Below, piece after piece: positions 13,829 to 57,765 of a stretch of 64,000 nucleotides of DNA (positions within the stretch are counted from its first letter, which is position 1; every line of letters starts with the position of its first letter). The position numbers and the translations under genes were made by a program. The notes under the pieces were generated by a model. That model had not been told where the DNA came from. It made no database searches and was given only the letters and a program-made list of their open reading frames with translations. This DNA comes from Imbricaverruca yamaguchii (lineage: Eukaryota > Arthropoda > Thecostraca > Neoverrucidae), in contig JAOTOL010001633.1 in assembly GCA_034440575.1 (NCBI GenBank), positions 2,513,001-2,577,000 of the forward strand, written 5' to 3'.

Positions 13829-13987
13829 GATGGCAGCCGCACGCGGTCAGCTTTGCTTGCGTACCTTGCATTCGTGCGTGGTGTCTCAGCACAGGGCCTT
13901 TGGCAAATGGCATGTAATCGAAACTTTCACGCTGATGAGCGGATGCCGCACGGCTGTAAGTCTGTGTGCTCCCATCGCTGTGACAAT
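13829..13987. other. spacer between two satellite arrays
   Basis: This is about 160 bases of unique sequence between the 8-bp and 13-bp arrays. Its last bases, GTGACAATGTGCCGTGGTA, recur at the far end of the 13-bp array (17819-17837). Confidence 0.7.
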
Positions 13988-16900: not shown

Positions 16901-17848
16901 ACGTGCCGTGGTAACGTGCCGTGGTAACGTGCCGTGGTAACGTGCCGTGGTGGTAACGTGCCGCGTGCCGTGGTAACGTGCCGTGCCGTGGTAACGTGCC
17001 GTGGTAACGTGCCGTGGTAACGTGCCGTGGTAACGTGCCGTGGTAACGTGCCGTGGTGCGTGCCGTGGTAACGTGCCGTGGTAACGTGCCGTGGTAACGT
17101 GCCGTGGTAACGTGCCGTGGTAACGTGCCGTGGTAACGTGCCGTGGTAACGTGCCGTGGTAACGTGCCGTGGTAACGTGCCGTGGTAACGTGCCGTGGTA
17201 ACGTGCCGTGGTAACGTGCCGTGGTAACGTGCCGTGGTAACGTGCCGTGGTAACGTGCCGTGGTAACGTGCCGTGGTAACGTGCCGTGGTAACGTGCCGT
17301 GGTAACGTGCCGTGGTAACGTGCCGTGGTAACGTGCCGTGGTAACGTGCCGTGGTAACGTGCCGTGGTAACGTGCCGTGGTAACGTGCCGTGGTAACGTG
17401 CCGTGGTAACGTGCCGTGGTAACGTGCCGTGGTAACGTGCCGTGGTAACGTGCCGTGGTAACGTGCCGTGGTAACGTGCCGTGGTAACGTGCCGTGGTAA
17501 CGTGCCGTGGTAACGTGCCGTGGTATCGTGCCGTGGTAACGTGCCGTGGTAACGTGCCGTGGTAACGTGCCGTGGTAGCGTGCCGTGGTAACGTGCCGTG
17601 GTAACGTGCCGTGGTAACGTGCCGTGGTAACGTGCCGTGGTAACGTGCCGTGGTATCGTGCCGTGGTAACGTGCCGTGGTAACGTGCCGTGGTAACGTGC
17701 CGTGGTAACGTGCCGTGGTAACGTGCCGTGGTAACGTGCCGTGGTAACGTGTCGTGGTAACGTGCCGTGGTGACGTGCCGTGGTAGCGTGCCGTGGTAGC
17801 GTGCCGTGGTAACTTCTCGTGACAATGTGCCGTGGTAGCGTACCGTGA
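13988..17848. repeat. 13-bp minisatellite array (GTGCCGTGGTAAC)n, about 3.9 kb
   Basis: About 300 units of GTGCCGTGGTAAC, with recurring variants (GTGCCGTGGTAGC, ...TATC, and ATGCCGTGGGAAC). Partial units and slips cluster between about 14640 and 16560. A variant string (GTGTCGTGG, TGACGTGCC, TAGC, then AACTTCTCGTGACAATG) occurs near 16747-16830 and again near 17749-17837, which shows a roughly 1-kb higher-order duplication. The very long minus-strand frames of repeated RYHGTLPRHVTTA-type peptides are by-products of the unit. Confidence 0.97.
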
Positions 17849-22440: not shown

Positions 22441-22574
22441 ATGGAGGAATCGACGGAGGAGCGCCGACTGGCCGAGGACCGCACCAGGACGGCCAACTGG
22501 AAGCGCTGGGGACCCTATCTGAGCGAGCGCCAGTGGGGCACCGTGCGGGAGGACTACAGCGCTGATGGTGGCTG
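22441..22574 (+). CDS. exon 1 of GH63-like hydrolase (residues 1-45)
   Basis: It encodes the start Met, a charged N-terminus and the family's hallmark block [19 protein letters not shown]. It ends in phase 2 at CTG|GTCAGT. Other GT choices (at 22567 or 22569) do not give the WDYF frame of exon 2. The last 40 or so bases plus the donor are repeated downstream. Confidence 0.85.
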
Positions 22575-25500
22575 GTCAGTGGCTGATCAGTGGCTGGTCA
22601 GTGGGGTACCGTGTGGGAGGACTACAGCGCCGATGGTGGCTGGTCAGTGGCTGATCAGTGGGGTACCGTGTGGGAGGACTACAGGGCTGATGGTGGCTGG
22701 TCAGTGGCTAGGAGGACTACAGTGGGGATGGTGCTATGGCTTCAGTGGCGGGAGGACTACAGCGCCGATGGTGGCTGGTCAGTGGCTGATCAGTTGCTGG
22801 TCAGTGGGGCACCATGTGGCAGGAATACAGCGCCGATGGTGGCTGGTCAGTGGGGCACCATGTGGCAGGAATACAGCGCCGATGGTGGCTGGTCAGTGAC
22901 TGGTCAGTGGTTGGTCAGTGGCTGGACAGAGACTGGCCAGTGGCTGGCCATTGTCTGCTCCACGTATCGCAATCACCTTACACGCTGGGAAAATAATTAC
23001 TTCATGCTGGGCAAAAACTTTGCACCGTTGTGACGGTCCTACCATTCACTATAGGCCGGACCACTCTAGATTCAGCAGACAAAACCTTGTTCGGCTCAGA
23101 GCGCCGGAGGCTGGCAACAGACGATCGCCAGCAACAAAGGCTAGCAACAGACGATCGCCAGCAACAGAGGCTAGCAACAGACGATCGCCAGCAACAGAGG
23201 CTAGCAACAGGCGATCGCCGTGCCCCGCTGCCCTGGACTATGCTGGCTGTGCTACCTGCTCACGTCACCGGCAGATCAGTCAGCTGCCTCGAGTGTTCTC
23301 TCGGAGCAGCCCCGTCACATCCCCTGGCGCCTGACTAAGTGTGTTATTTTCTATATCTTCTATTCCAGTGCTTTGCGTGGGTGTCCGCTATGCGTGAACA
23401 TTGAGCACCCGTCGGACGGCGCTGTCAGTCCTTCGTTTTTTTTAGCAGTCCCCCCAGTTGGGACTACTTCAGCCCCGATCAATTCTCTCATACGCGATCC
23501 ATGCCGCATCCTCTGATCTAACCATGTCCCCCAGCTGGGACGAATTCAGCCATAATCATCCCTCAAACGGCGACCCTGCCGCACCCTCTGACCTGACCGC
23601 GGCCCCCCAGCTGGGACTACCCAGCCACGATCATCCCTCAAACGGCGACCCCTGCCGCACCCTCTGACCTGACCGCGTCCCCACCCCAGATGGAACTACC
23701 CCAGCCACGATCATCCCTCAAACGGCGACCCCTGCCGCACCCTCTGACCTGACCGCGTCCCCCAGCTGGGACTACCCAGCATAAGATCATCCCTCAGACG
23801 GCGACCCTGCCGCACCCTCTGACCTGACCGCGTCCCCACCCCAGATGGAACTACCCCAGCCACGATCATCCCTCAGACGGCGACCCCTGCCGCACCCTCT
23901 GACCTGACCGCGGCCCCCCAGCTGGGACTACCCAGCCACGATCATCCCTCAGACGGCGACCCCTGCCGCACCCTCTGACCTGAACCGCGGCCCCCAGCTG
24001 GGACTACCCAGCCACGATCATCCCTCAGACGGCCACCCCTGCCGCACCCTCTGACCTGACCGCGGCCCCCAGCTGGGACTACCCAGCCATGATCATCCCT
24101 CAAACGGCGACCCCTGCCGCACCCTCTGACCTGACCGCGTCCCCACCCCAGATGGAACTACCCCAGCAACGATCATCCCTCAGACGGCCACCCCTGCCGC
24201 ACCCACTGACCCGACCGCGGCCCCCAGCTGGGACTACTTCAGTCACGACCATGCCCGCTCGAGGGCGTACCGCTGGGGCGAGGACGGTCTGCTCGGCATC
24301 ACGGACCGCCAGTGCCGACTCTGCTTCGCGCTGGCGCTCTGGAACGGCCGTGACCCGATCCTGAAGGAGCGTCTGTTCGGCCTCACCGGGCCAGAGGTCA
24401 GTGGGCGCGTGCGCCGCAGCCGTGATAGCGGAGATCCAGCAGCGCTTGGGAACGACGCAGCAGCGCATATCCAGCAGCACATATCCAGCAGCACATATCC
24501 AGCAGAGCTGACCCAGCAGCGCTGACCCAGCAGCGCTGACCCAGCAGCGCTGACCCAGCTGAGCTAACACAGCAGCGGTGGAAAACAGCCAGACTTTGTC
24601 CCCTACAGACACGCAACTCCTGCATCTGTCTCTGTTTGGGACCTACTTATGGGTGGTGGTGGTTATTGGTTTTACGACACGTCGACCATTGAGTCGTGTA
24701 GCGTCGCCAATCTCTCACGCCGATTGGCCGCGGGCGAAGAATAACGACAGGTGAGACTCGAACCCACAATCTTGCTGCTGTGAGACGGGCAACTTACCCC
24801 AAGACTACTCGTCTCCGCCTACTTATGGGTGTCAGTAGCATGAACACGTTCGTTTCTGGGTTTTGTACTGGAACTCGGCGCTACCTCGTGGAGGGCCCGA
24901 GTTAAGTGTTCGAACCGCACTCGAAGTTTAAGTTTGCTTGACTCTTTTATTCTTACATATGCTGTAAGTCTGATTGCAAAACTTGTAAGCCTATTTTCTT
25001 CTTCGTCTGTTTTTCATCTGCTGCTTACTGTGCTGATTGGGTGACGTTTTACTTAGTGATAGAACAGTAATCGCTGTTCCTGTTCATCAATACCTACGTC
25101 CCTTTTGCACTGACCAGAGTAAAGGTGTTCCTCACGCACTTGTGCACCAGTGAGCGACCTTTTTACCTGTGACACCCAGTTGCGTCGTCTTCGCCTTTAT
25201 GTGATCGAATTCCAGGATTGAATATCGATTCGCCGAGGAAACTGCGATGGATGGGTATATTGCGCAAGGCGTTGGCGGCGACTCAAGCATCTTAAGATGC
25301 AAATGGCTTCACATTTCGTAGCGAATTCGACGAGATGTGCGTAGTGAACACGAACATCAGAACCAACTGCGTGTATTGATAAATTGCACGTCAACATTTT
25401 ATTTTACATCAGCCAATAATGAATTCCTCAAGTGATTGTGTCCGTGGAAACATTTCGCCGGCAGGGCAACCACGGAGAGGACTGTAAGGAGTGCTACTAC

Positions 25501-28500
25501 TATCTGGACTCAACGCCGACGCACTCGTACATGCGCGCGCTGTACAAGTATCCGCAGACGGCGTACCCGTACGAGGAGCTGGCGCGGGAGGGTCGAGAGC
25601 GTGGCTTCGACAGACCGGAGCACGAGCTGGAGGACACAGGCGCGTGCATGGCCCCACGGCGTGGTGCTGTGTCGTGGTGTGGTGTGGCGTGGCGTGTGTG
25701 GGTACAGGAACAGGGAGCCGGCATGGTCGTGCTTCCCTCAACGTCTGGGCGCCTTAATAACCGTCGCGTTTCATGGATATAATTGACTTAGAAGTGATCG
25801 GAATAGCGTCTCAAGGCACTATTCACGAAGTGCCTAAAATAGTGTCGACACTTAATCTCACCTAACGATCCAGAAAATAGAAGTCAGATATTATTCGCGA
25901 CCTTGGGACGTGCAAAACGCTAGCTGACGTGGCATATTGCTAGCTTTCTGCGATTGGAAATGCTCTAGGAGCAGCAACATCCTGTACTGGCGAAGAGGGA
26001 GAAATATCTCAGCTCGCCATCTGTTTGGGTCCGAGCTTGAAGGGTGCGAAATCGATGTCAATCAGCCTGGACATGTCACAAAGGATCGTCTGAGGCCTGT
26101 GACCTGAACTGGCATGGCCCGGCAATAAGCGTTACAACACAAGTTCGGCAATGAATGATCGCAGGTCTGTGCAGAGTTCCATTGCATTCTATTGATCCAT
26201 TTCTAAAATATTCTGAATAAGAAAAGAACTTCCCTACCCACCAACGCGAGAAGCCGAAGTTCTCGCTGTTTAAGAAAAAGTAACGTGAACACTGCATCAG
26301 CTTAAAAAAAATCATGCCTCAGAATGTCATGCTATAGCCATCAGAGACGGTCACAAATATGATAATTTTTGCCAATCACACGATAGTATGATTCGTGGAA
26401 AATGTCCCAGTAAGGATTTTGTTTCTCATTTCCCCGTTGCAGCCTGGCCGGCGCATCACCAGAACTTGATCCCTGCAACAACGTTAGTCTATGGTGACTG
26501 ATCACTCTGCGCCACGACTGTCTCTCTGAGACCGCAGTGGCGCAGCGTCCGATTCTTCTGGCCTCACCGTCAATGTAAAGTGATCTGACTTCTTTCAACC
26601 CTGTGTATTGAGTACTAATAAGTTGCATCAACAAGATAATCGTCAGAAACCTGGCATCAGAGAGTACTGTCCCTTGTCGCAATCGCTCCACTGCGCCTGA
26701 GCCTTACCTCCGGCCTGGGAGAAGCGTCGTGTCATGAGGCGACAACGTTCTGCAATGCTGACAGGTGCGTTCAAAGACAACCGCTACTGGGATGTGTCAG
26801 CCGAGTACGCCAAGTCCAGTCCGAACAACATGCTAATTCGGATCACCGTCTCCAACCGGGGTCCCGAGGACAGCACCATCCACGTCATCCCCACACTCTG
26901 GTGAGTGTCCCGCGTGCTGTTGGTGGGTGTCTTCTCCAACCGGGGTCCCGAAGACAGCACCATCCACGTCATCCCCACACTCTGGTGAGTGTCCCGCGTG
27001 CTGTTGGTGGGTGTCTTCTCCAACCGGGGTCCCGAAGACAGCACCATCCACGTCATCCCCACACTCTGGTGAGTGTCCCGCGTGCTGTTGGTGGGTGTCT
27101 TCTCCAACCGGGGTCCCGAGGACAGCACCATCCACGTCATCCCCACACTCTGGTGAGTGTCCCGCGTGCTGTTGGTGGGTGTCTTCTCCAACCGGGGTCC
27201 CGAAGGATAGCACCATCCACGTCATCCCCACACTCTGGTGAGTGTCCCGCGTGCTGTTGGTGGGTGTCTTCTCCAACCGGGGTCCGAGGATAGCACCATC
27301 CACGTCATCCCCACACTCTGGCGAGTGTCCCGCGTGCTGTTGGTGGGTGTCTTCTCCAGCAGGGGTCCCGAGGAGCAGCACTATCCACGTCATCCCCACA
27401 CTCTGGTGAGTGTCCCGCGTGCTGTTGGTGGGTGTCTTCTCCAACCGGGGTCCCGAAGACAGCACCATCCACGTCATCCCCACACTCTGGCGAGCGTTCC
27501 AAGTGCTGGTGGTGGGTGTCCCCTCCAGCAGGTGTCTGAATAGCAGCGCTACCTACGCCATCCCCACACTCTGGCGAGCGTTCCAAGTGCTGGTGGTGGG
27601 TGTCCCCTCCAGCAGGTGTCTGAATAGCAGCGCTACCTACGCCATCGTTCCTCCACGCCAGAGAGAGCACCGGAGCGGCGCGGTTCTGCTGAGATTGACA
27701 GGTGGCCTGAATACACCGCGGGACTGCCGCCCGCGGCCACACTTTCTGCGTACAAAATGAGCGGAGAGGCAGAGTGTGGATATTAGAGCACGACCCGCAT
27801 AATTACGAGGCTCGTCATGGCAGTGAAATGAGGACACTGTGTGACCGCAGGAGCCACAGGAACGGCTCGACCGCACCAATACGATGGCCACCAATCATTG
27901 CCCGATACAGGATCAGTGCTCTGAGTAGCTATCGCAGACGGACTGACTAGTCGTGAAAGGAAGCAGTGTCCGGAACTAATGTAACAAGGAACGGTACGTG
28001 AAAGTGCTTTATGAGGATAAGGCATACACACTTGCACATATTTCCTCTCTAGGAGCATCATACAGATCTCATGTGGAGCAGTCAGAAAACATAAATCATT
28101 TTATCTGTATATTGGAACGCATGCACGAGCGCACGAATGCACGTACGCACGCACGCACGTACGCAAGCACATCACACCAATCACACATCAGCCACACACT
28201 AGCAACGCCAACCACACACTACACCAACCACACACTACACCAACCACACACGACACCAACTACACCAAGCACACACCACACCAATCACACACTAACTACA
28301 CCACCCACACCACACCAACCAAACACTAGGACACACCAGCCACACCACCCATACACACTAGCCACCCACCACACGAACCAAACACCAACCACGCCATCCA
28401 CACCAACAACACACCAACCACACACCACACCAATTGCACACCGCACCACACCAATTACACACCGCACCGCACCACCCACACCACTTATCCACACCACCCA

Positions 28501-49500: not shown

Positions 49501-52500
49501 ATAGGGACATTCTTCTATCTATTTACCTCCTTAATGGATTCCTCGATCAACCCTTTGACTTGTTGCAGGAGATCGGAATTTACATGCTCATGTTGTTTTG
49601 GAGATGTCGCGCACTTCCTCTTGGATTCCATTGGTTTGGACGTTTCTCCTAACGATCTCCGCCGTTTCTCTTCTGGACGAGGCGCTATTTGTGGTTGCGC
49701 CCCGTCGGCAGCCTCCTCGACGTCACCAAGTGCACACTCGGACGCACACTCCTGGCTGGTATCCGGCATAACGGTATCCGTATCCTGTATACGGTACGGC
49801 ATCCGGCAACACTTTGAGCGGCACATCACTCGCAGCGATTCGCGTGACGCTGTCTATGCGCTGCGCCGCCACGCCGCCTGCTGTGGGCTCAGGCTGATGC
49901 TGCCCTTACACTGCGCCGCCACACCGCCTGCTGTGGGCTCAGGCTGACGCTGCCCTTACACTGCGCCACCCCACCCCCTGGGGCTCAGGCTGACGCTGCC
50001 CTTACACTGCGCCGCCACACCGCCTGCTGTGGGCTCAGGCTGACGCTGCCCTTACACTGCGCCGCCACACCTCCTGCTGGGGGCTCAGGCTGACGCTGCC
50101 CTTACACTGCGCCGCCACACCTCCTGCTGGGGGCTCAGGGTGACGCTGCCCTTACACTGCGCCGCCACACCGCCTGCTGTGGGCTGCTCAGCCTGACGCT
50201 GCCCTTACACTGCGCCGCCACACCGCCTGCTGTGGGCTCAGGCTGACGCTGCCCTTACACTGCGCCGCCACACCGCCTGCTGTGGGCTCAGGCTGACGCT
50301 GCCCTTACACTGCGCCGCCACGCCGCCTGCTGTGGGCTGCTCAGGCTGACGCTGCCCTTACACTGCGCCGCCACACCGCCTGCTGTGGGCTCAGGCTGAC
50401 GCTGCCCTTACACTGCGCCGCCACACCGCCTGCTGTGGGCTCAGGCTGACATTGCGGGCCCGGCCGCGGATCGCACCCCACAGATGAGCCACACGATATC
50501 GGCGCGGGTCAGGTCAGACCTGGCCTCCAGACAGACGCTTCTGTGACCGCTCACCGCCGCAGTCAGGGACCGACTGGCAGATCGAGCATGTAGCGGTGCC
50601 CCCTCCTCTGCCGTGAGCAGCACGGGTCACGTGGATTACATGTACGGTGGGAGGGGGAGAGTTTGGCGTGTCCTGAAGACGTTCACATCATAGGTGCTTA
50701 TTGGACAGGAAGCCAGTCCAATGTCGGCGGGATTTTCGACTGGTTCTTGCTGCATATACCGGTGTTCCAATCGATCGTAAGGCGATTCACCAGCGGACAT
50801 GCAATGCCCGTCTTTTGACCGGGTTTCGGGGCATCTTTGCCGGGCTCCAGTGTGGCGTGGTCGGAGCAGACTTGCCAGACCCTGGCCTCCCAACATTATG
50901 AGCATCTGCCACCTATTGTGCACATGGATTAGTATCCGTTTGAAGTTGGTATGCCGGTATAAGAGGCGCCTACAGGGACGCTACCGGCCAAGGGTAAGCT
51001 TCAACAGCACAGCGAAGTCGAATCTGAATGTATATCAGTATATCAGCCAAAGGCAGGTACATTTGTTCTAACGTTTATACACAATGCACAGCCAAGCGCC
51101 TACAGGCGTGCATGCAGAACTGACGTGATTTCGGACGCCATACTTTCAACAAATTGCACTATTACGGCCAGAAATAGAAAGCACCATATCTGTCTCTTTC
51201 CGAGATGGAACTCGAAACTACAGAAAAAGAACACGAGCTAGCGGAACGCTTCACCCCTGCACCATCGGAACGGGAGGTGAACACCTACCTCGACGGAGGT
51301 GTAGCGAACGTTGCCCACGTGCCCAGATATCGTCGTGTACCCCTTTCTTTAAACACCAGTTGAGGACCTGAGATAATGAGTGCGTGAGTGCGTGAGTGAG
51401 TGAGTGCGTGAGTGAATGAGTACTTCAGCGGGGTCGTGGTGGCTCAGGCGGTATGGTAATTAACTGATCGCAAGATCGTGGGTTCAGATTACTATAGGAT
51501 TACAGAATCCACTCGCGACCAGACGGACGCAACCAGAACAGAACGCTGTTTAGAGTTGACCTACAGCGAAAGAACCGCCACAAACCACTTTCTTGGAGGA
51601 GGGAGTGACACTACACTTCATTAATATTGGGATAAAGTTGGTAAAAATCAAAATTAAAGTAACACATTTGACGCCGAGAACACGAACTTAGAACCATAAA
51701 CATTGCCCCCCTCCAAACCACAAAAAGTTGATCCGGCTTGAAAGGTGTGACGGTCTTGCCAGAGCGGGCTGCTCAGGTGAATTTCCGTACCAGTGGAGCC
51801 ATAAGGAGGCGTTGGGCGAACGAAGGGAGGATGCCGGGTGGCCGGCGGGATGTCCTGCTGCAGGCACAGGATCAGGCACCATGCCGTTCTGGACAACATG
51901 TGAACCAGCCGCAACTACGCTCTCTCGACAGCCGCCAGGATGTGGATCCAACCGCGTCCAACTCTCCTCAATCCGTGAACACCTGGATCCAACCGCGCCC
52001 AACTCTTGCACAAGTGTGCCAATTGCAGACGAAAGCAAAGTTTATCTCGTTAGTTCGGCACGGCGCAGTAACAGTTTGACCAATTGCTGCATATTCTGAA
52101 GAAGAACTCAAGTGTGGAAACAATGCGTTTAGCTTCGCACACGTGAATGTAAAAACAATCCTAATTCACTCGCAATTGACCGTATTGGTTCTTCGACGTC
52201 GGGCTCATCTGCTACTGCACGTTCCTCAAGCTTCACGGAGAGCGTGTCGAGTTGACATCAGTGCCACGTCACAGCCATCCCGGTCAGTGTGCACAGTGTG
52301 CAACCTTTCAGCACGAGGACGGCCTGTGACTGACACTGGCATACCGGGCGGCGAGGTCACGTGGTGACGACGGTCAACAGAGGTCACGAGCATCAGCGGA
52401 CGTGGCTGGGTGCAGGACGGACGGCAGGTGTCGGCTGGGGTGCGATGTATGTTGGAAGCTGCCCGCGCGGGGACTGAGGCTGCGATCCCGTTTTTTTACA

Positions 52501-53560
52501 AAGTTTTTTTTAGCGACTTACATCGCAATACTTCGGGAGAAATATTGCGATGTAAGTTGCTAAACATCACAATGATCAAGGAGGTCCAACGCTGAGTGTG
52601 GACATTATACATTGAAATGCTACATTGCAGCGTGACACGCTGTTGAAAGTTACAAGGAAGCCGAAATGTTGTCGCAAATCTTATTCTCAACAAAAATTGG
52701 AGCATTTAACACGCGCCCTGGAGGCCCTCTGAAAATTACGCGCACTGAAGGGGAGGGGGCGGATTAAAGGGTGTCAGTACCGCCATACGGCAGGGCACAG
52801 ATAATTGGGGTGCCGACACCACCCCGTCACGGGGCACAACTACAGTGTGTGCCGACACCATCATATCACAGACACATAGGTGGAGCCGGTCAGCACGCGC
52901 TGACCGGCTGGCCCAACACAAAGAGACATAGCCGTGCCACCACCCGACCCAGTCCGTCCACAACTGGGCACCGTTAGGCGATTACCTCGCCAGTGCACGC
53001 TTGATGGTGTGCTCGACGGTAACGGTGTGTGGGTGTGTGTGACGGTGTGCGCCACACATACACACACACACACACAGGTGGAGTTTCCTGTGCTTTTGAG
53101 GGGCCTGGGCCCACTACCTTTGCCTCGGCCCCACCAACTGCTTGCGTTCTTAACATGGAACCAAATAAGGTGGACCTCACCAACCAAATTGGCACCACTC
53201 ATGCTCTCCATGTATTGGGGGCACCAATAATTGTCAAACCTCTCCACCGATGCACGCACGGTGCCAGCAGCCGATCGTGCTGGCGACGGAGCGGTGGCGG
53301 CGTTGCGTGCGCGAGCTGTGTAGATACTCGGCCGTGGCCACGCCCCTGCACGATTATCACAACGCCGACGCGGACCCTCTCAAACGCACTCCCCAGCTGA
53401 ATGTCGACAAACTCACCGCATGTACAGCCGGGGGTACAATGGGTCGCATAGAACGGTGCATTGTCGGCGGTGCAGGTGCTGATCCACGCCACGGCTGAGA
53501 GCCGTCGCCAGCCCGGACCGGCCTGTGTCGGCCCTCACGGGCTGAGGCCCTACGGGTGCG

Positions 53561-53596
<36 letters not shown>

Positions 53597-56500
53597 CCCC
53601 TGGGGATGCCCGGCCATCGAGGTCGCCCTGGGGACGAGATGCCCCTTCTGCCGGGCTGCGGCCGTTGCAACAGGGCTTGTTGATCGCAGTGGGCCGGCCA
53701 GCAACGGCACCAAGTGCGGAGCAGCCGAATGTGCTTGTAAGGCGGGCAAAGCAAAGCCGGCCACTCACAGAGTCTCGGGTCGTAGCGGGCCGAAACTTGG
53801 CACGGCCACGCCGGAAGAGTTCAGCTTTCGTGGACAGCTGTCAAAATCGCCGCCCACTACCCGGAAGCGCGCCGTTTTGCGACTTTCCTTATTGATAATG
53901 CTCTCGACGGGGGAACACGGCGGCTGGGCGGGCTCGTGGCGGCGAGACGCTGCAGCCCCGCTGCCGGAAACTTCTGCACCGCGCAGGCACAGAGTCCTCG
54001 CGGCGGCTGGCCGATTCTCGGCGGCCGGCCGTGGCCGTCGCGGACGCAGGTCAGCCGCCGATCTACAGGTACAAGCACATCTGCACACGGCGCTCGACGG
54101 GCGCCAGGAGCGCGCCGCCGTCGGCCGCTGGCGTACTTTCACGTCGGTGGCGAGGTTATAAAGCGCGGCCGGCCGCCGCCGCGCGTACACACAGCGTAAG
54201 GCAGCCGAGGGGTGCGCACGGTGCTGCACGTGAACCGATATCGCCGCCTCGCCCGTGATGACCGACTCAGCCGCCGCCGCCACGCCGGCCAAGAAGGGCA
54301 GGAAGCCCAAGGACGGCGCCAAGAAGAAGGCGGCCAAGCCGAGTCACCCGCCCACGCTGGAGATGGTGACCAAGGCGATCGCCGCCGAGAAGGACCCCAA
54401 GGGCGTGTCCGTGATGGCCATCAAGAAGTACATCCAGGCCCAGTACAAGGTGGCGCCCACCATGCTGAAGCACATGCTGCGGCGGGCGTTCGACGCCGGC
54501 CTGGCAGCGGGTCAGCTGACCAGACCCAAGGGCCAAGCCGACTCGCACCTGCTGGCCGGTCGATACAGACTGGCCGGCAAGGAAAAGAAAGTGGCCGCCG
54601 GCAAGCCTAAGGCAAAGTCTCCGAAGAAGCCGGCCAAGAAATCTCCTAAGAAGCCGGCAGCCAAGAAGCCAGCGGCCAAGAAGCCGGCGGCGAAGAAGCC
54701 AGTGGCCAAGAAGCCGGCGGCGAAGAAGAAGACGCCCAAGAAGGCCGCGAAGAAATCCCCCAAGAAGGCCACTGCGAAGAAGGCAGCCAAATAAGTGTTG
54801 TGGTGTGCGATGTGGCCTGCAGTGCATCATATTGTACATACGCGTCTGTCTTATACGTCATCGTCATCCATATTGGACAACTGTTTTGCTTTACCTCGGG
54901 TGTCTGGACGCCCGCCGCCGTCTGTGGGCTCGTGGCGTGGGCAGCGCGCGCGCGCGTTTTAAGACCCGTACGACCGTGCCTGGTGAGAAGAGAGCCGGTC
55001 GCGACTGGATCGATCTCACCAGATTAAACACGCGCCGCCGTGTTACACAATACATGTCATCCTTGTAACGAGCGACTTTGGCGTCCGGTTCGGAAGCCCG
55101 GCCAACAGTGCTTGAACGTGAAGGCTTCGGGACAACATTTGATGGTTCAATGCAGGAGCAGAGCTAGACATTTTCACGGGGAGAGTCGCACAATCCTATG
55201 AGATTCGCACATGCACTGCGGCATGTGTCCTCAATGGAACGTGGATCCATTCGTGAAGGCTGAAACGCACCCAGATCTTTTTTTTAGCTAGAGGCGTTCC
55301 TCTGGGAGGAAAAAGCGCAGTATTATCGTGTGCACCCCATCTAATTTGTCAATCATAGGCGCTCCTCCAGGTATTGTCGCAGTGAAGCCCCTCCAGACAA
55401 ACTGCCCCCATGACAATTCCTGTATTCGCTCCTGTCAGAAGTGCACATTTTCACGGAGAGGCGCCTTTGGCGGAAAATTCGCTGAGTGGGTGCGGGTTGG
55501 GGTTGAGGGGACAGGGTGACCCGAGCTTTTCTGAAAGGACACCTTTTCATGGGGAGGCACATTCTCCCAGCATACTCTCCCTCCCCCGCTGTATGTGCTG
55601 TTTCAATGCAATATCAATGACCGTGGGTGCGTTCTTTCACATTCCGTCCACGGATTCCGCGGACTGTGATGCCACGTTCTTTGTTCATCCTCTCGAGATC
55701 CGCGCATAGTTTCTGTCGATTGCTCGAGGAACCCATGGCCCGTCATAAGCTGTCCATGTCCTGTGTGGTTTCGTGGAAGACGGCTATGATGATGCTGAAG
55801 ACGAAGAAGATAGCTACGAGCTACGCTCATGAGACATGTGGATCAGAGCACGATAAGTCTGAGAAGTTCGCAGGCAATTCTGTGAAGGCAAGGCGGCTGG
55901 ACCGAGGTGTACCGAAGGGCCTGCATAGGTGTTTATGCCATCGACGATGAGGTATTGGGTTTTCCGAGCTAAGTTCGGAAGTTTACAAATAGAGTCAGAA
56001 ATGACTCACGCAATGCATATATGACGTACAGGGACTTGCCAGAACGCTCAACGGCTGGGGCCCACGGAACATGCAACGTCGCATACAGTGGAATCCGAAT
56101 AATAATTGTGACAGTGAATACACTCCATGAGTCCAGTCGCCAACAGCCACAGGGAAATGTCTATGTTTATGCTAGCGTGGCCAAACATTCCAGCAGATTT
56201 TCAAAGGCGACACATATCATTAGTAGTGGAGCCAGTAGGTTAATTAAGTGGCAATATTCGAAATGGGTCAGTCTTTTAAAGTAGCGGGCATAAGTCCTCT
56301 GCAAATATAATAAAATCTACGAACAGCAAAATATTTCAGATGGCTTAATATGAAAGTTGTTTTACCCGCTCTGTCCTGTAACTACTTTTCATCAATATTC
56401 AGCTCATCCCAGTCGAAAAAAGAGCTCAAGGTTAAAATCAGGCACTGTAAAGGATGAAGTATCAAATTAGGCAGCGAAGCAGCACATCTGATGCGCAGAA

Positions 56501-57529
56501 GCAGAGCGTGGAACCGTACCGACCAGATAAATGGTCAATTTATATATTTATTTATCATATTCATGCGTGTATTTGTGCGGAGACATGTGCGCATGTGAGT
56601 GCGTGCAATTTCTGTATGGTAGCATAGGAGTACATTAATAACTACAGGCACCATAAGCAACAATCTACCAATTGTCATTATTAATTTAAATCGTTTAATT
56701 GGGCGCGAATGATCAATTCTTGTCGAAGCGCCCTAAAGCCCAAATAACTAACCAAATCGCATAATTCAATATATTGATAAGCAATAGAAAAATAAGAAGT
56801 AAAAGAAATAGCTCAAGTACATGCGTCATATGAACGACTAAGTCAAGTACATTTCAATTAAAAAGTGAGAGTAAACGCCCACCATACAAGTCGTACAAAC
56901 CAGCGCAGGTAGCTACTCTCCTCGCGGCAGCTGAACATGCTGCAACCTACAGCTAGGTAAAACATTTAAGGATCACACTAGACGAACGATAATTCTAGGA
57001 TTGTCTAGATTCCTTCGAGGAACCAAATGACCTTAATTTTTTTAACAGCGAAACGTACGATGTGGCCAAAATTATTGACCCAGTTACCCACCCAGTGCCA
57101 TAGCTCACAACCGACCCTGTGACTCGGCTGTGACACTCAGCTGACCCTGTGACCCGGATGTGACACATAGCAGCTTACCCTGTGAGCCTCTCAGTACTGT
57201 GATCCTCAGCTGACCCCATGGCCCTCTCCTTACCGTGATCCTCTCAGTACCTGACCCTCAGCTCACCATGTGACCCTCTCAATGATATGACCCTCAGCTA
57301 ACCCTGCGACCCTGTTACCCCGTGACCCGCAGGAGACTCTGCACAGTACGCCTCGGACCCCTTCTGGCGCGATCTGGTGCTGTTCTACGAGTACTTTGAC
57401 GGCGACACGGGCCGCGGCTGCGGCGCCTCCCACCAGACCGGCTGGACGGCCCTGGTCGTCAACTGCCTCATGATGAAGCTGGGCATGCGGCACGGCGGCC
57501 TTGCCTGGAGGTACGACTCGCAGAAGTGA
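22441..57529 (+). CDS. GH63-clan glycoside hydrolase (YMR196W / bacterial glucosidase-like), 16 coding exons
   Basis: Coding exons: 22441-22574, 24228-24396, 25465-25639, 26765-26900, 29665-29918, 30417-30526, 31499-31816, 35898-36021, 36343-36487, 38394-38514, 39735-39894, 40413-40618, 41203-41355, 42128-42279, 43117-43265, 57333-57529. They total 2703 nt and encode 900 residues plus stop, with matching phases at every junction. The family is GH63-like (alpha/alpha)6-barrel glucosidases; yeast YMR196W and many bacterial proteins have the same order of blocks. There is no signal peptide or membrane segment, so a cytosolic enzyme is likely. By analogy with GH63, the candidate catalytic acid is Asp437 in YASWDLAFH and the candidate base is Glu855 in [11 protein letters not shown]. 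The true substrate is unknown; relatives include alpha-glucosidases and glucosyl- or mannosylglycerate hydrolases. Introns 1-14 are packed with minisatellites, several made of exon edges. Intron 15 spans 14 kb and contains histone H1. Intron 3 needs a GC donor. Confidence 0.92.
22575..22962. repeat. intron 1 minisatellite made of exon 1 tail plus donor
   Basis: Six or so copies of the exon 1 end (ACCGTG...GAGGACTACAGCGC, then GATGGTGGCTG|GTCAGTGG) follow the real exon, spaced about 47 to 74 bases apart. The last two copies are 47 bases apart and read CAGGAATACAGC instead of GAGGACTACAGC. Each keeps the donor-like CTGGTCAGTGG. Confidence 0.9.
23109..23222. repeat. 30-bp tandem repeat, 4 copies, intron 1
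   Basis: Units run GGCTAGCAACAGACGATCGC then CAGCAACAGA. They lie in intron 1 and are unrelated to the exons. The 30-base period keeps frames open, but there is no sign of coding use. Confidence 0.9.
23445..24227. repeat. intron 1 minisatellite made of exon 2 acceptor plus exon head, about 10 copies
   Basis: A unit of about 75 bases repeats up to the true exon 2. Each unit carries CCCCCAG followed by CTGGGACTAC and a CAGCCACGATCATCC stretch that matches, with decay, the start of exon 2 (CTGGGACTACTTCAGTCACG...). The first copy (near 23450) still reads GGGACTACTTCAG as the exon does. The array therefore presents about ten decoy 3' splice sites. Confidence 0.9.
24228..24396 (+). CDS. exon 2 of GH63-like hydrolase (residues 45-101)
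   Basis: Encodes [20 protein letters not shown] and [20 protein letters not shown], both strong family blocks. It starts after CCCCCAG in phase 2 and ends at GAG|GTCAGT in phase 0. Confidence 0.93.
24397..25464. other. intron 2
   Basis: It contains short CAGCAGCGCTGACC-type repeats (24470-24560) and a SINE at 24656-24817. The rest, 24832-25464, shows nothing recognisable. Confidence 0.8.
24656..24817 (-). mobile_element. tRNA-derived SINE with 14-bp target-site duplication
   Basis: The insert is flanked by perfect copies of CCTACTTATGGGTG (24642-24655 and 24818-24831). Read on the minus strand, it begins with a tRNA-like head: an A-box-like TAGTCTTGGGGTAAG and a B box GGTTCGAGTCTC about 30 bases later. 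The body follows (CGGCCAATCGGCGTGAGAGA) and it ends GTCGTAAAACCAATAACC. A second copy of body and tail is at 10256-10354. The element is mobilised by a LINE in trans; the partner is unknown. Confidence 0.88.
25465..25639 (+). CDS. exon 3 of GH63-like hydrolase (residues 102-160)
   Basis: Encodes [20 protein letters not shown] and [17 protein letters not shown], then HELEDTG. It starts after CGGCAG in phase 0. To keep the frame into exon 4 ([11 protein letters not shown]), the exon must end at ACAG with a GC donor (CAG|GCGCGT); no GT gives the right phase. Confidence 0.88.
25640..26764. other. intron 3 (apparent GC-AG intron)
   Basis: About 1.1 kb without any recognised element or open frame of note. 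It begins GCGCGT and ends CTGACAG. Confidence 0.75.
26765..26900 (+). CDS. exon 4 of GH63-like hydrolase (residues 160-205)
   Basis: Encodes [17 protein letters not shown] and [18 protein letters not shown]. The acceptor is GACAG; the donor is CTCTG|GTGAGT in phase 2. Its last 54 or so bases are the seed of the 84-bp array that follows. Confidence 0.93.
26848..27655. repeat. 84-bp minisatellite made of exon 4 tail plus donor, about 9 copies
   Basis: The unit contains about 54 bases of exon 4 (from TCTCCAACCGGGGTCCCGA to ACACTCTG) plus about 30 bases of intron (GTGAGTGTCCCGCGTGCTG and so on). Junction copies start near 26897, 26981, 27065, 27149, 27233, 27317, 27402, 27486 and 27571. Three of the later ones read GCGAG instead of GTGAG. 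The final two copies have drifted (GTGTCTGAATAGCAGC). At 84 bases (28 codons) the period preserves frame, but every junction reads TGG TGA if not spliced. Confidence 0.95.
28170..29245. repeat. ACACCAACC-rich array with 31-bp core unit
   Basis: The core at about 28480-29060 is a 31-bp unit (ACACTACTTATCCACACCAC, then CCACACCAACC) in about 18 copies. The flanks are degenerate ACACCAACCACAC repeats. The C-rich/A-rich strand bias is strong (almost no G on the plus strand). Long Thr/His/Pro-rich open frames here are by-products of the unit. Confidence 0.95.
29561..29664. repeat. upstream duplicate of exon 5 head with its acceptor
   Basis: An 80-bp unit is present as a decoy at 29585 and again at the real exon start, 29665. 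The decoy has the same acceptor (GCGCAG|GTATCGC) and about 60 bases of exon 5. Use of the upstream site would add 80 bases and shift the frame. Confidence 0.9.
29665..29918 (+). CDS. exon 5 of GH63-like hydrolase (residues 205-290)
   Basis: Encodes [18 protein letters not shown], then [20 protein letters not shown] and [11 protein letters not shown]. The acceptor is GGCGCAG, the donor AACG|GTGAGA, phase 1. The frame after residue MS (SRQAGGEV...) shows that the second of the two duplicated acceptors is the real one. Confidence 0.92.
30417..30526 (+). CDS. exon 6 of GH63-like hydrolase (residues 290-326)
   Basis: Encodes [19 protein letters not shown] and [10 protein letters not shown]. It starts after TTACCAG and ends CAG|GTGAGA, phase 0. 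The end is the seed of the repeat that follows. Confidence 0.92.
30505..30930. repeat. minisatellite (about 34 bp) made of exon 6 tail plus donor, about 11 copies
   Basis: Copies of GACTC(T/A)CGTCTGTA(C/T)CAG|GTGAGATGCT follow exon 6. Donor-like cores fall near 30524, 30557, 30590, 30626, 30657, 30691, 30722, 30757, 30789, 30822 and 30890. Some keep GTGAG, others have decayed to GTCAAA, GTTAGA or GCCGAG. Confidence 0.9.
30931..31498. other. intron 6, distal part
   Basis: No exon is seen. It contains the end motif of a dispersed repeat (31260-31279) and a short TCACTGGTGTG repeat near 31390-31450. Confidence 0.6.
31499..31816 (+). CDS. exon 7 of GH63-like hydrolase (residues 327-432)
   Basis: Encodes a helical stretch ([15 protein letters not shown]), then [17 protein letters not shown] and [19 protein letters not shown], ending in WEYPW. 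The acceptor is TTTACAG and the donor TGG|GTGAGC, phase 0. Coding GC is high. Confidence 0.94.
31817..31862. repeat. 14-bp triplicate starting exactly at the exon 7 donor
   Basis: GTGAGCGGTAGCTC is repeated three times beginning with the donor dinucleotide itself, so three identical GTGAGC donors stand in a row at 14-base spacing. Confidence 0.9.
31900..35095. repeat. 53-bp minisatellite filling intron 7, about 3.2 kb
   Basis: The unit is GTGGCGACTGGCCGCCACTG, then GACAGGACCCACAGTCGGCA and a CCTGTCTGTCTGT end; a 49-bp form lacks one TGTC. Roughly 60 copies. Units at 31900-32490 and 34260-35095 are clean. Units between about 32500 and 34260 are riddled with one- to four-base deletions, and an AT homopolymer-rich piece sits at 33420-33540. 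The repeat shows no match to exons. Multiple long frames are by-products. Confidence 0.96.
33406..33545. other. AT-rich low-complexity insert within the 53-bp array
   Basis: About 120 bases made almost wholly of T and A runs interrupt the array. Flanking units are also damaged. It may be a real insertion or a poorly resolved assembly patch. Confidence 0.6.
35096..35897. other. intron 7, distal part
   Basis: It includes a 12-base C run near 35167-35184 and, at about 35675-35870, three degenerate copies of a block around GACGGTGTAGGCATGA / GGCGGTGTAGCTGATG. No exon is seen before 35898. Confidence 0.6.
35898..36021 (+). CDS. exon 8 of GH63-like hydrolase, holds the WD catalytic motif (residues 433-474)
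   Basis: Encodes [20 protein letters not shown] and [16 protein letters not shown]. In GH63 enzymes the Asp of a WD motif at this place is the general acid; here it is Asp437. It starts after TTTTCAG and ends CCGG|GTGAGT in phase 1. Confidence 0.94.
36343..36487 (+). CDS. exon 9 of GH63-like hydrolase (residues 474-522)
   Basis: Encodes [20 protein letters not shown], then [18 protein letters not shown]. The acceptor is GTTTCAG; the donor is ACCTG|GTGAGT, phase 2. The LMLNFTW end seeds the next array. Confidence 0.94.
36466..36880. repeat. 51-bp minisatellite made of exon 9 tail plus donor, 8 copies
   Basis: The unit GCTAATGTTGAACTTCACCT, then G|GTGAGTACGGGCCCATGGG and TGTGTCGAGCA. Eight junctions lie near 36483, 36534, 36585, 36635, 36686, 36734, 36786 and 36837. 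Nearly all keep a usable GGTGAGCACGG donor, unusually well conserved. The 51-base period keeps frame, but unspliced read-through meets TGA at once. Confidence 0.95.
37260..37727. repeat. dispersed repeat family, copy 2 (ends CCGAGACGGGTCGGGTTAAG)
   Basis: See the copy at 6410-6657: the same order of a TGACCTGAGGTCAAAAT block and the terminal CCGAGACGG...GGTTAAG block. It is AT-richer than the flanking introns, and a run of G (AAGGGGGGGC) precedes the end motif. Confidence 0.5.
37740..37975. repeat. 26-bp minisatellite, about 9 copies, intron 9
   Basis: The unit GAAGTTCCTGGACGGTGACG then GTCGGG. The first six or so copies are near identical; the last three drift (CTGAGCTGTGTTGGTCC and so on). 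No match to exons. Confidence 0.93.
38394..38514 (+). CDS. exon 10 of GH63-like hydrolase (residues 522-562)
   Basis: Encodes [20 protein letters not shown] and [20 protein letters not shown], a highly conserved family block. The acceptor is CGTCAG, phase 2; the donor GAGCAG|GTGATG, phase 0. Confidence 0.94.
38530..38720. repeat. CAGATGGTGGT repeat just after exon 10
   Basis: A degenerate 11-12 base motif (CAGATGGTGGT / CAGATGGTGGC) repeats for about 190 bases starting 15 bases after the donor. It does not copy exon sequence. Confidence 0.85.
38721..39240. other. intron 10, middle part
   Basis: No exon or known element is recognised; it includes an AT-rich stretch at 38970-39050. Confidence 0.5.
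39240..39695. repeat. about 62-bp minisatellite, 7 copies, intron 10
   Basis: The unit GGGTTACCTCCGGACCGGAG, then AGGGCTTGGGCAGCATGTGA and GTGGTACGGTATTACCTGCC. Seven copies end about 40 bases before the exon 11 acceptor. Each contains GTGAGTGGTA, a donor-like string, but no exon sequence. Confidence 0.93.
39735..39894 (+). CDS. exon 11 of GH63-like hydrolase (residues 563-616)
   Basis: Encodes [20 protein letters not shown], then a helix-rich stretch ending [14 protein letters not shown]. The acceptor is TTGCAG; the donor GAAG|GTGGGT, phase 1. Confidence 0.94.
40330..40412. repeat. upstream decayed duplicate of exon 12 head with acceptor
   Basis: The first CCCTGCAG|GCCTGT acceptor lies at 40340-40341 and is followed by a 72-bp near copy of exon 12's start (CTTCTACTTCGACTTCATCAG). 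The copy reads CTG TAG where the true exon reads CTG TGG, so it is not coding. Confidence 0.9.
40413..40618 (+). CDS. exon 12 of GH63-like hydrolase (residues 616-684)
   Basis: Encodes [19 protein letters not shown] and [20 protein letters not shown], then [19 protein letters not shown]. The acceptor is CCTGCAG (second of two); the donor is AGG|GTACGT, phase 0. Confidence 0.94.
40619..41202. other. intron 12
   Basis: No repeat of note and no gene within it; one of the few introns in this gene without a minisatellite. Confidence 0.6.
41203..41355 (+). CDS. exon 13 of GH63-like hydrolase (residues 685-735)
   Basis: Encodes [20 protein letters not shown] and [17 protein letters not shown]. The SPYGIRSLS block is shared with other GH63 enzymes, including processing alpha-glucosidase I. 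The acceptor is CTGCCAG, the donor AAG|GTGAGG, both phase 0. Confidence 0.94.
41690..42127. repeat. two arrays in intron 13: about 31-bp GTGGTACCGAGTG type, then 19-bp GTCAACTGC type
   Basis: At about 41735-41830 a unit near 31 bases (ACGTGGCACCGAGTGGTCAGGTGAC) repeats three to four times. It is followed by about 15 copies of a 19-bp unit (GTCAACTGCTGCCGTTGGC / GTCAACTGCTTCCGTTGGT) running to the exon 14 acceptor. The last unit merges into TTGCCGCAG, so the array supplies the pyrimidine tract. Confidence 0.93.
42128..42279 (+). CDS. exon 14 of GH63-like hydrolase (residues 736-786)
   Basis: Encodes [17 protein letters not shown], then [19 protein letters not shown] and LLIEALDR. The NWRGPIW block is a GH63 hallmark. 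The acceptor is GCCGCAG; the donor CCG|GTGAGA, phase 2. Confidence 0.94.
42263..42420. repeat. duplicate of exon 14 tail plus donor
   Basis: TCGAGGCCCTAGACCGGTG recurs about 86 bases after the real junction. The donor there has decayed to GTGCAACA, and both are followed by a related AGTCAGCT(G/A)TATG-like block. Two copies only. Confidence 0.85.
42420..43116. other. intron 14, distal part
   Basis: No element or exon is recognised. Confidence 0.5.
43117..43265 (+). CDS. exon 15 of GH63-like hydrolase (residues 786-836)
   Basis: Encodes [19 protein letters not shown] and a helix [16 protein letters not shown]. The acceptor is CCGTCAG; the donor CATG|GTGAGT, phase 1. It pairs in phase with exon 16, 14 kb away. 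Confidence 0.93.
43598..43861 (+). other. unrecognised 87-codon open frame
   Basis: The frame is hydrophilic and rich in Lys, Asn and Ser, ending in a basic tail (RSKTRN). I know no match. Inside intron 15 among LINE debris, a retrotransposon ORF fragment is the likeliest source. Confidence 0.25.
44370..45220 (-). pseudogene. CR1-type LINE ORF1 fragment (esterase-like domain), broken
   Basis: Reading on the minus strand from 45220: a [20 protein letters not shown] block (knuckle plus coiled coil), then from about 44870 [13 protein letters not shown] and, to 44615, [18 protein letters not shown] and [16 protein letters not shown], a SGNH-esterase pattern of CR1 first ORFs. Other frames further on carry the [15 protein letters not shown] end (near 44420). 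There is at least one stop and several frame changes. No RT follows, so this is an isolated piece. Confidence 0.7.
45856..47290 (-). mobile_element. 5'-truncated CR1-type LINE, copy A
   Basis: The 3' end on the minus strand is an octamer-type tail (ACATAAAGACATAAA, 45858-45882 as read on plus). Going 5', it covers the C-terminal tail and RT ([15 protein letters not shown]) and stops near [14 protein letters not shown] at about 47285, where the sequence departs from the copy at 60-63.6 kb. Stops and frame changes break it; for example a stop follows the WSEEWQ/DLDELVK region and the FVS-NIKSG block is altered. Confidence 0.9.
46262..47116 (-). pseudogene. RT domain remnant of CR1 copy A
   Basis: Two open segments (47116-46730 and 46711-46262) carry RT motif [16 protein letters not shown], motif B changed from GVPQGSV to GVPQLSV, motif C FADDRQV, and the thumb ([18 protein letters not shown]). 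It is separated by a stop between the two segments. Non-functional. Confidence 0.88.
47300..47572. other. spacer between two CR1 copies
   Basis: No recognisable element; AT-balanced unique sequence of about 270 bases. Confidence 0.5.
47573..48722 (-). mobile_element. 5'-truncated CR1-type LINE, copy B
   Basis: Same orientation and 3' octamer tail (AGACATAAAGACATAAAG, 47577-47600 on plus) as copy A. It contains the thumb and tail of the RT and starts near the [13 protein letters not shown] point (48722), so it is more severely truncated. Reading frames are open in three pieces (48675-48406, 48405-48115, 48075-47680). It keeps FADDLKV but lacks the palm motif A. Confidence 0.9.
48723..49335. 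other. no gene or repeat recognised
   Basis: Part of intron 15; nothing supported on either strand. Confidence 0.5.
49350..49498 (+). mobile_element. 5'-truncated tRNA-derived SINE with 14-bp target-site duplication
   Basis: Perfect direct repeats GCATAGGGACATTC lie at 49336-49349 and 49499-49512. The insert begins GGGTTATGGGTACC, has a B box GGTTCGACTC near 49375, and ends CCAATTAACAAACAA. The A-box half of the tRNA head is missing. It is unrelated in sequence to the SINE at 24656-24817. Confidence 0.85.
49515..49829 (-). other. 104-codon open frame, possible retrotransposon ORF1 fragment
   Basis: Charged, with a [11 protein letters not shown] block and a C-terminal coiled-coil-like [17 protein letters not shown]. 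That pattern suits the N-terminal part of a LINE ORF1, but there is no diagnostic domain. Low confidence. Confidence 0.25.
49848..50452. repeat. 50-bp minisatellite, about 12 copies, intron 15
   Basis: The unit GCGCCGCCACACCGCCTGCT, then GTGGGCTCAGGCTGACGCTG and CCCTTACACT. Some units carry an extra TGCT or a shortened CCACCCCACCCCC form. It is not related to exons or to H1. Confidence 0.95.
50453..51422. other. no gene recognised
   Basis: Intron 15 sequence. A short GAGTGCGTGAGTGAGTG simple run occurs at 51380-51418. Confidence 0.5.
51423..51500 (+). mobile_element. tRNA-like head, probable SINE fragment
   Basis: TGGCTCAGGCGG (51440-51451) fits the A-box consensus and GGTTCAGATT (51481-51490) is a degenerate B box 30 bases on. 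Between them, GATCGCAAGATCG resembles an anticodon arm. It is not a true tRNA gene because no acceptor stem closes. The tail and target duplication are not identified. Confidence 0.45.
51501..53030. other. no gene recognised apart from the hairpin
   Basis: No exon is supported. The interval 52745-52870 has a loose repeat of CCGACACCA-type blocks. Confidence 0.5.
52509..52564. repeat. inverted repeat, about 22-bp stem, 12-nt loop
   Basis: Arms TTTAGCGACTTACATCGCAA (start 52509) and its partner ending TAAGTTGCTAAA (to 52564) pair with a single mismatch; the loop is CTTCGGGAGAAA. It has the size of a small RNA hairpin or of a miniature inverted-repeat element. No other copy is seen in the window. 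Confidence 0.75.
53031..53080. repeat. (GT)n/(AC)n microsatellite
   Basis: A TGTGTGGGTGTGTGTG run followed by about 22 bases of ACACACAC, able to fold back on itself. Confidence 0.85.
53081..54156. other. region upstream of histone H1; no gene, one (CA)n tract
   Basis: It contains a (CA)n microsatellite at 53559-53592. It becomes GC-rich from about 53880 towards the H1 promoter. Confidence 0.5.
54157..54162 (+). promoter_or_regulatory. TATA box of histone H1
   Basis: TATAAA lies 96 bases before the H1 start codon within a GC-rich region. A start of transcription about 30 bases on (near 54188) would give a 5' UTR near 70 bases, usual for histone genes. I do not see an H1-specific AAACACA box upstream. 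Confidence 0.75.
54258..54794 (+). CDS. histone H1 (linker histone), intronless
   Basis: 178 residues. The start is the ATG at 54258 (a GTG just before it is not used). Residues 1-27 form a short Ala/Lys tail. About 28-104 are the H15 winged-helix globular domain ([42 protein letters not shown]). From about 105 the tail is Lys/Pro/Ala, with three SPKK and one TPKK site and [10 protein letters not shown] repeats. It binds linker DNA at the nucleosome dyad. Oddities: the globular C-terminal wing, normally near GASGSFKL, reads [15 protein letters not shown], and I see no histone 3' stem-loop downstream. It lies inside intron 15 of the GH63-like gene on the same strand, with no other histone nearby, so it may be a replication-independent or divergent H1. 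Confidence 0.95.
   Translation: MTDSAAAATPAKKGRKPKDGAKKKAAKPSHPPTLEMVTKAIAAEKDPKGVSVMAIKKYIQAQYKVAPTMLKHMLRRAFDAGLAAGQLTRPKGQADSHLLAGRYRLAGKEKKVAAGKPKAKSPKKPAKKSPKKPAAKKPAAKKPAAKKPVAKKPAAKKKTPKKAAKKSPKKATAKKAAK
55430..55570. repeat. dispersed repeat family, copy related to 20525-20760
   Basis: Shared ordered landmarks include TGCACATTTTC, a GCTGAGTGGGTGCGG block and CGAGCTTTTCTGAAAGGACA. The ends are uncertain. Confidence 0.45.
56728..56755. repeat. short dispersed repeat, copy 2
   Basis: Matches 6155-6182 at 26 of 28 bases, in the same orientation. Confidence 0.55.
57083..57330. repeat. degenerate GACCCT/CAGCTGACC repeat before exon 16
   Basis: Variations of TGACCCTCAGCTGACCCTGTGACCC repeat up to the exon 16 acceptor, and provide the pyrimidine-rich stretch before it. 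Confidence 0.75.
57333..57529 (+). CDS. exon 16 of GH63-like hydrolase, candidate catalytic base and stop (residues 836-900)
   Basis: Encodes [15 protein letters not shown], then [20 protein letters not shown] and a helix [19 protein letters not shown], ending LAWRYDSQK and TGA (57527-57529). By analogy with the WEQYDxxTGxG motif of GH63 enzymes, Glu855 is the candidate base. The acceptor is CCCGCAG, phase 1, matching exon 15. Confidence 0.93.
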
Positions 57530-57765
57530 CTCGCAGGGATGGCCGGACGCTACACACAGTGGTGTCGCCTGGGGGTACGACTCGCAGAAGTGACTCGCAG
57601 GGATGGCCGGACGCTACACACAGTGGTGTCGCCTGGGGGTACGACTCGCAGAAGTGACTCGCAGGGATGGCCGGACGCTACACACAGTGGTGTCGCCTGG
57701 GGGTACGACTCACAGAAGTGACTCGCATTGATGGCCGGACGCCTCGCACAGCGATGTCGCCCGTC
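57500..57765. repeat. 64-bp minisatellite made of the last codons and stop
   Basis: The unit GCCTGGGGGTACGACTCGCA, then GAAGTGACTCGCAGGGATGG and CCGGACGCTACACACAGTGG, in three and a half copies. It starts with the last coding bases (GCCTGGAGGTACGACTCGCA + GAAGTGA), so each copy carries the end of the protein and its TGA. Confidence 0.95.

Follow-up and report, generated by a model that had tools for sequence, protein, structure and literature searches.

The barnacle gene for a predicted GH63/MGH1-like protein bears copies of its own exon edges in the adjoining non-coding DNA at nine of its 31 edges (30 splice junctions and the stop codon), and a tenth edge, the donor of exon 7, opens an array that consists of intron sequence only. 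The affected edges are the donors of exons 1, 4, 6, 9 and 14 as well as, in the intron-only form, of exon 7, the acceptors of exons 2, 5 and 12, and the stop-codon end of exon 16. In our view these copies are probably mirages (tandem duplications whose seed straddles an exon border), with borders favoured a few fold and with selection sparing the copies that lie on the non-coding side. The sequence-only reading of this DNA had counted about 10 of 31 boundaries as affected, and this was borne out.

The host gene and its repeated exon edges

The window, which is the whole stretch of 64,000 nucleotides that was analysed, is contained in a 767-Mb genome. The gene (YMR196W-like; coding span 22441..57529, + strand) was modelled from 16 exons, joined according to reading frame and splice sites. 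In the rebuilt model the spliced frame was stop-free, encoded 900 amino acids, had consistent phases and ended with a terminal stop. The best named relative was an “uncharacterized protein YMR196W-like” from a goose barnacle, Pollicipes pollicipes, with 86% identity (771 of 899 residues). This places the host most likely among the barnacles and, at such an identity, probably in another species than P. pollicipes. Because the alignment was gap-free over 899 amino acids, all 15 intron positions are supported. MGH1-like and GH63 C-terminal domains were found above threshold with Pfam (PF22422, 95.5 bits, cut-off 27; PF03200, 45.6 bits, cut-off 22.4), and by both profiles the predicted product is a GH63/MGH1-like glycoside hydrolase. 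A linker histone H1 reading frame (PF00538; window 54234-54791, +) was located within the 14-kb intron 15, on the same strand as the host gene.

Copies of the exon edges were searched for with the exon-side 24 bases, taking the best copy within 2 kb; hits with 0-5 edits were followed by alignment across the junction. All arrays described here lie on the + strand. Among the donors, the tail of exon 1 with its donor (ggctg/gtcagt at 22574/22575) belongs to an array at 22531..22947 with nine more copies that contain GT; four of the nine are partial (6-7 edits in 28). The tail and donor of exon 4 (ctctg/gtgagt at 26900/26901) lie in an 84-bp array (26849..27611) with eight further copies, five of which have an intact GT, those of exon 6 (accag/gtgaga at 30526/30527) in a 34-bp array (30503..30819) with seven decoy GT sites, and those of exon 9 (acctg/gtgagt at 36487/36488) in a 51-bp array (36466..36871), also with seven decoy GT sites. 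The tail and donor of exon 14 are present in two copies 87 bp apart (42255..42400; real site 42279/42280, decoy 42366/42367). The 14-bp array of exon 7 (31817..31866) begins exactly with the donor GT and is intronic throughout, without exon sequence. Among the acceptors, the head of exon 2 (cccccag/ctggga at 24227/24228) is part of a 76-bp array (23450..24252) with 10 decoy AG sites, the acceptor and head of exon 5 of an 80-bp unit in 2.1 fully identical copies (29558..29727; real acceptor 29664/29665, decoy 29584/29585), and the acceptor and head of exon 12 occur twice, 71 bp apart (40318..40455; real 40412/40413, decoy 40341/40342). Finally, the last coding bases, the stop codon (57527-57529) and the 3' flank form a 64-bp array (57503..57761) with three further copies. 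The copies were always found on the non-coding side: downstream of donors, upstream of acceptors and beyond the stop. In the exon direction, even the best match at any of the 31 edges had at least 6 edits in 20.

As a control within the host gene, exon-interior 24-mers gave copies in 0 of 70 cases at up to 4 edits and in 3 of 70 at 5 edits, which is the level of exons 12 and 14. Since interiors also match at this level, the assignment of exons 12 and 14 rests on the alignment across the junction. A strict uniform test, which required a copy of the exon-side 20-mer with at most 3 edits in the 205 bp of adjoining non-coding DNA, was passed by 7 of the 31 edges; those of exons 2 and 12 missed it with 4 edits each. 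A 4-edit match of the exon 5 donor was dropped as chance, its target being in exon 7. The description of the affected boundaries as sitting in tandem arrays held for most edges but had to be corrected for exons 12 and 14, whose single extra copies were not reported as arrays by TRF; by a strict count, TRF arrays enclose no more than 7 of the 31 junctions. The range of unit lengths given earlier (14 to about 86 bp) was corrected to spacings of 14 to 87 bp.

Comparison of the edge arrays with each other by BLAST revealed no shared sequence at E 1e-2, which agrees with the earlier view of independent events instead of one spread repeat, and no match to the other fetched loci was obtained at 1e-4. 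Copy identity within the TRF arrays ranged from 75% (exon 6) to 100% (exon 5) and, because of this span of match levels, the events that formed the arrays probably differ in age. In the exon 5 duplication the same 10 bases (CGCTCATGTC) begin the 80-bp segment and follow it, as would be expected if it had arisen through a short direct repeat. The complete identity of this pair is also what an assembly artefact could produce; such an origin of the copies is nonetheless highly improbable, given the diverged copies of the other TRF edge arrays (75-97% matches) and the same structure on other contigs.

Further repeats were observed in the window. Two long adjacent arrays, an 8-bp unit TCGTACAG x 344 and a 13-bp unit GTGCCGTGGTAAC x 295, occupy positions 11121-17847. 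A 19-bp array (window 41845-42121) stops 6 bases before the acceptor of exon 14, the pyrimidine tract of which may be repeat-derived.

An origin of the host introns by tandem duplication of AGGT-containing pieces was examined by the in-register similarity of donor and acceptor ends, which averaged 7.8 of 24 over the 15 introns versus 7.95 in mismatched pairs and thus gave no hint of such an origin. Intron 3 stands alone with 13 of 24 in-register matches, by far the highest of the 15. It has a GC donor, the other 14 donors being GT, and carries the words ACAGGCGCGT and ACAGGTGCGT at its two ends (window 25636-25645 and 26761-26770).

Decoy splice sites

At eight edges, 41 decoys keep GT or AG, in agreement with the earlier remark that the decoy sites are often still good. 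If used, 39 of the 41 would lead to a premature stop and two to an in-frame open product. The predicted correct product needs the exon-proximal site at every affected junction, and this choice would fit exon definition for short exons in long introns. The spliceosome would thus have to skip the decoys in favour of the site next to the exon, for which exon definition would offer the easiest route. The gap-free alignment of the predicted 900-residue product with its barnacle ortholog would, indirectly, be in keeping with undisturbed splicing. The persistence of GT/AG in so many decoys could also mean that selection favours the copies, with duplicated splice sites or enhancers in the introns helping to define short exons among long introns. 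We regard this as very unlikely: nearly all of these decoys would truncate the protein if used, the copies drift (for example, GC replaces GT in 3 of the 8 exon 4 decoys), and the stop-codon array lacks any splice site.

Exon borders and array boundaries

Arrays cover 9794 of the 35325 bases of the host gene (28%). When they were shifted circularly along the gene, 8.4 junctions were overlapped on average versus 7 observed, and there was no excess; with so much of the gene made up of arrays, plain overlap does not rise above chance. The circular shift treats every expanded copy as a possible holder of the exon, whereas the real exon can lie only in the first copy, and a first-copy null was added. 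With it, 94 of 2500 random positions in the host introns (3.8%) compared with 7 of 31 edges (Fisher p=1.6e-4), a value inflated by the fact that the gene was picked for being striking. In the neighbourhood of the window the same null gave 75 of 4000 random positions. Array boundaries of the host gene numbered 7 in 1011 bp near edges versus 9 in 9659 bp farther off; over the GC-matched expectation, the near-edge excess was 7.1-fold (7 vs 0.99).

In order to assess the borders of other genes, profile matches to myosin, kinesin and dynein served as the source of exons, irrespective of repeats, yielding 57 exons with 114 edges from about 33 gene loci. Out of 251 profile matches listed (72 + 126 + 53), 199 rows were entered; omitted were the majority of the matches with internal stops, the matches in long single frames and a few others for which no reason was recorded. 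The 57 exons analysed out of 199 comprise 37 in stretches chosen by match strength or practical fit and 20 kinesin or dynein exons taken at random, and their edges are predictions from profile matches and a generic splice-site score with hand-written weights. By eye, mirages were recognized at 7 of the 114 edges. The strict test (at most 3 edits) was positive at 5 of 114 edges and in 0 of 538 interior segments (Fisher p=1.5e-4); against the first-copy null (75/4000) these 5 of 114 edges were not significant (p=0.07). Adding edges from the neighbourhood recognized by eye gave 6/128 (p=0.039), or 6/130 (p=0.041) in a recount with about 16 neighbourhood edges in place of 14, and this combined figure is soft. 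The neighbourhood genes came from a codon-bias search of 210 kb around the window, from which a fourth candidate gene was left out as too uncertain; one predicted exon acceptor among them is a mirage. Judging from their translations, these genes may be SH3BP5-, TMX2- and NOS1AP-like.

Mirages occur at either end of one kinesin exon (C1362:1420641-1421478), with a 74-bp unit at the acceptor and a 57-bp unit at the donor. The 12-mer GTCAGTGGCTGA opens the intron at two unrelated mirage donors, that of this kinesin exon and that of exon 1 of the GH63/MGH1-like gene (window 22575-22586), and it is absent from the 210 kb around the window. A 3-edit match of the myosin exon at C1272:99511 was dropped, as it lies 1.3 kb off where another myosin exon match is listed. 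Two dynein heavy-chain matches (C1340:1405036-1406250(-) and C1347:1730189-1731385(-)) each fall within one long open frame (4734 and 4283 codons, respectively), as do a myosin head (C1177:278919-280796(-)) in a 720-codon frame and a GH63 domain (C1170:404453-405916(+)) in a 686-codon frame, unlike the other dynein and myosin family matches, which are split into short pieces. These single-frame matches may be intronless genes, retrocopies or foreign contigs.

The position of the arrays relative to the borders was more telling than their overlap. Walking from each of the 114 edges into the intron, the first array spanned the edge in 6 cases, including the weak arrays at the C1272:103160 donor and the C1362:1419640 acceptor, which are not mirages by eye. 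It began at 0-49 bp in 13 cases, at 50-99 bp in 3, at 100-149 bp in 1 and at 150-200 bp in 1; at 90 edges there was no array within 200 bp, and random positions gave 3.4% per 50-bp class. Within 50 bp of an edge there were 14 array boundaries in 5061 bp, compared with 18 in 32961 bp at 50-500 bp (57 exons; rate ratio 5.1, p=2.4e-5), and the ratio was 5.2 to 8.2 over seven other edge definitions (raw profile ends included), cut-offs or subsets. The exon-edge overlap expected to exceed that of shuffled positions was thus at chance in its plain form in the host gene, whereas array boundaries were in excess at the borders of the sampled other genes. Since an array that grows gains copies without its edge coming nearer to the exon, the clustering most likely shows the sites of array birth.

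Array boundaries became commoner with higher flank GC, and the flanks of exons are GC-richer; in a 274-kb stretch, GC was 59% inside arrays and 48% outside. Against a GC-matched expectation, which was drawn from one 210-kb neighbourhood with the rates of extreme GC classes set by hand, the near zone showed a 2.7-fold excess (14 vs 5.1 expected, p=8.5e-4) and the deeper zone 0.74-fold, so that the near/far ratio fell from 5.1 raw to 3.7 after correction. The excess was 2.9-fold for acceptors (p=0.007) and 2.5-fold for donors (p=0.034), 3.0-fold for the 37 long-flank exons (p=0.002) and 2.2-fold for the 20 short-flank exons (4 vs 1.8 expected, p=0.11). GC content explains part of the border excess, and exon borders look like hotspots of array boundaries.

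Tandem pairs of the donor word CAGGTGAGT were also counted over the whole genome (548+1391 vs 234+284 for the word read backwards; raw pair counts). This count is suggestive but was rejected as proof, as long single arrays inflate it and nearly all listed places are on contig C66. A nearly continuous 3.8-kb array is found there (C66:21305-25140, -), mostly with 38-bp spacing, in which the listed units have the exact donor word.

These observations bear on whether borders are preferred at all. Minisatellites might be born anywhere and be purged from coding interiors, the host gene being an extreme draw without any border preference. The chance-level plain overlap, the marginal edge-copy excess in other genes and the dependence of array boundaries on GC speak for this explanation, but the five-fold clustering in the first 50 intron bases relative to deeper parts of the same introns and the excess remaining over the GC-matched expectation speak against it, and we consider it unlikely. 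It is similarly doubtful that a dedicated process at splice junctions (transcription-linked breaks, R-loops or nucleosome edges at exons) seeds the duplications. The border clustering in a sample blind to repeats and the many unrelated arrays in one gene would agree with such a process; acceptors, however, are affected about as much as donors, and the stop-codon border is affected as well, and both facts argue against a cause confined to the 5' splice site. The junction-specific cause first put forward (R-loops, breakage at the 5' splice site) has accordingly found no support so far. The border excess could stem from the border sequence (short direct repeats in the splice consensus, GC), from nucleosome edges or from transcription-linked damage; a cause in the border sequence itself may be compatible with the clustering.

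For the preferred reading, border-seeded mirages with selection, the steps would be as follows. Short local duplications would recur by slippage, microhomology joining or unequal exchange, a suggestion to which the single 10-bp end repeat contributes, and minisatellites are indeed frequent in the genome (0.52-0.59 arrays per kb where measured). Exon borders and the roughly 50 bp next to them would see births more often, GC accounting for one part of this and another reason for the rest. Duplications inside coding sequence would be removed by selection, as their absence suggests, while those spanning a border would survive, with the extra copies on the non-coding side and the original exon intact. 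More tentatively, and with somewhat less than even confidence, tandem duplication in the barnacle lineage may have its hotspots at exon borders throughout the genome, driven by a mutational process that is specific to borders and other than GC. Such a process would continually copy splice sites into introns, where new exons and introns could draw on them, and the mirages of amphioxus would be a second, independent instance.

Comparison with known systems

Repeated action of such duplication on the borders of one gene had been noted as not known, which does not hold: passages on amphioxus describe “mirages”, tandem repeats across exon-intron or intron-exon boundaries in Adh3, the globins BflGb6 and BflGb9, PGBD5 and troponin C, with units of 10-72 bp (Adh3) or 150-160 bp (globins), many of them with AG/GT (PMC3087553, PMC3902484). 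According to the same passages, splicing is reportedly undisturbed, repeat length is unstable and the repeats are proposed as a source of introns (PMC3087553, PMC3902484). Mirages in the amphioxus sense also vary in copy number, from allele to allele and somatically. The listings and passages returned by full-text literature searches placed boundary-spanning repeats in amphioxus only and none in arthropods; the words “minisatellite” and “tandem” do not occur in the Balanus improvisus genome paper (PMC8270832), nor “tandem repeat” and “satellite” in the Pollicipes genome paper (PMC8917513). The intronic minisatellites of earthworm metallothionein, as far as they are described in the passages seen, do not span boundaries (PMC12783039).

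With ordinary GC-rich minisatellites the barnacle arrays share unit lengths, diverged copies and GC content, but their units include a functional exon border. Proposals that introns are gained when AGGT-bearing pieces of exons duplicate in tandem (PMC4974935, PMC3443670; the idea is discussed in PMC3087553) likewise concern splice-competent sequence, but in the barnacle gene no new intron is seen to have been made, and donor and acceptor ends are on average dissimilar. The likeness to the amphioxus mirages extends to a repeat unit that spans the boundary, exon and intron parts being copied at eight splice junctions of the barnacle gene, and to the involvement of both exon ends (five donors and three acceptors, and both ends of one kinesin exon). 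The barnacle differs in belonging to another phylum (Arthropoda), in having 10 of 31 edges of one gene affected, the stop-codon border among them, and in that the clustering at borders was measured here in other genes. The structure is one already known from amphioxus, and the barnacle case is one of mirages in several genes of a crustacean. Together with the peak at borders, it would open to test, in any genome whose exons are annotated, whether exon borders are duplicated more often than the rest of the DNA. The decoys, of which up to ten intact ones lie beside the real site, are natural tests of spliceosome choice among sites that resemble each other, and new introns might arise from them.
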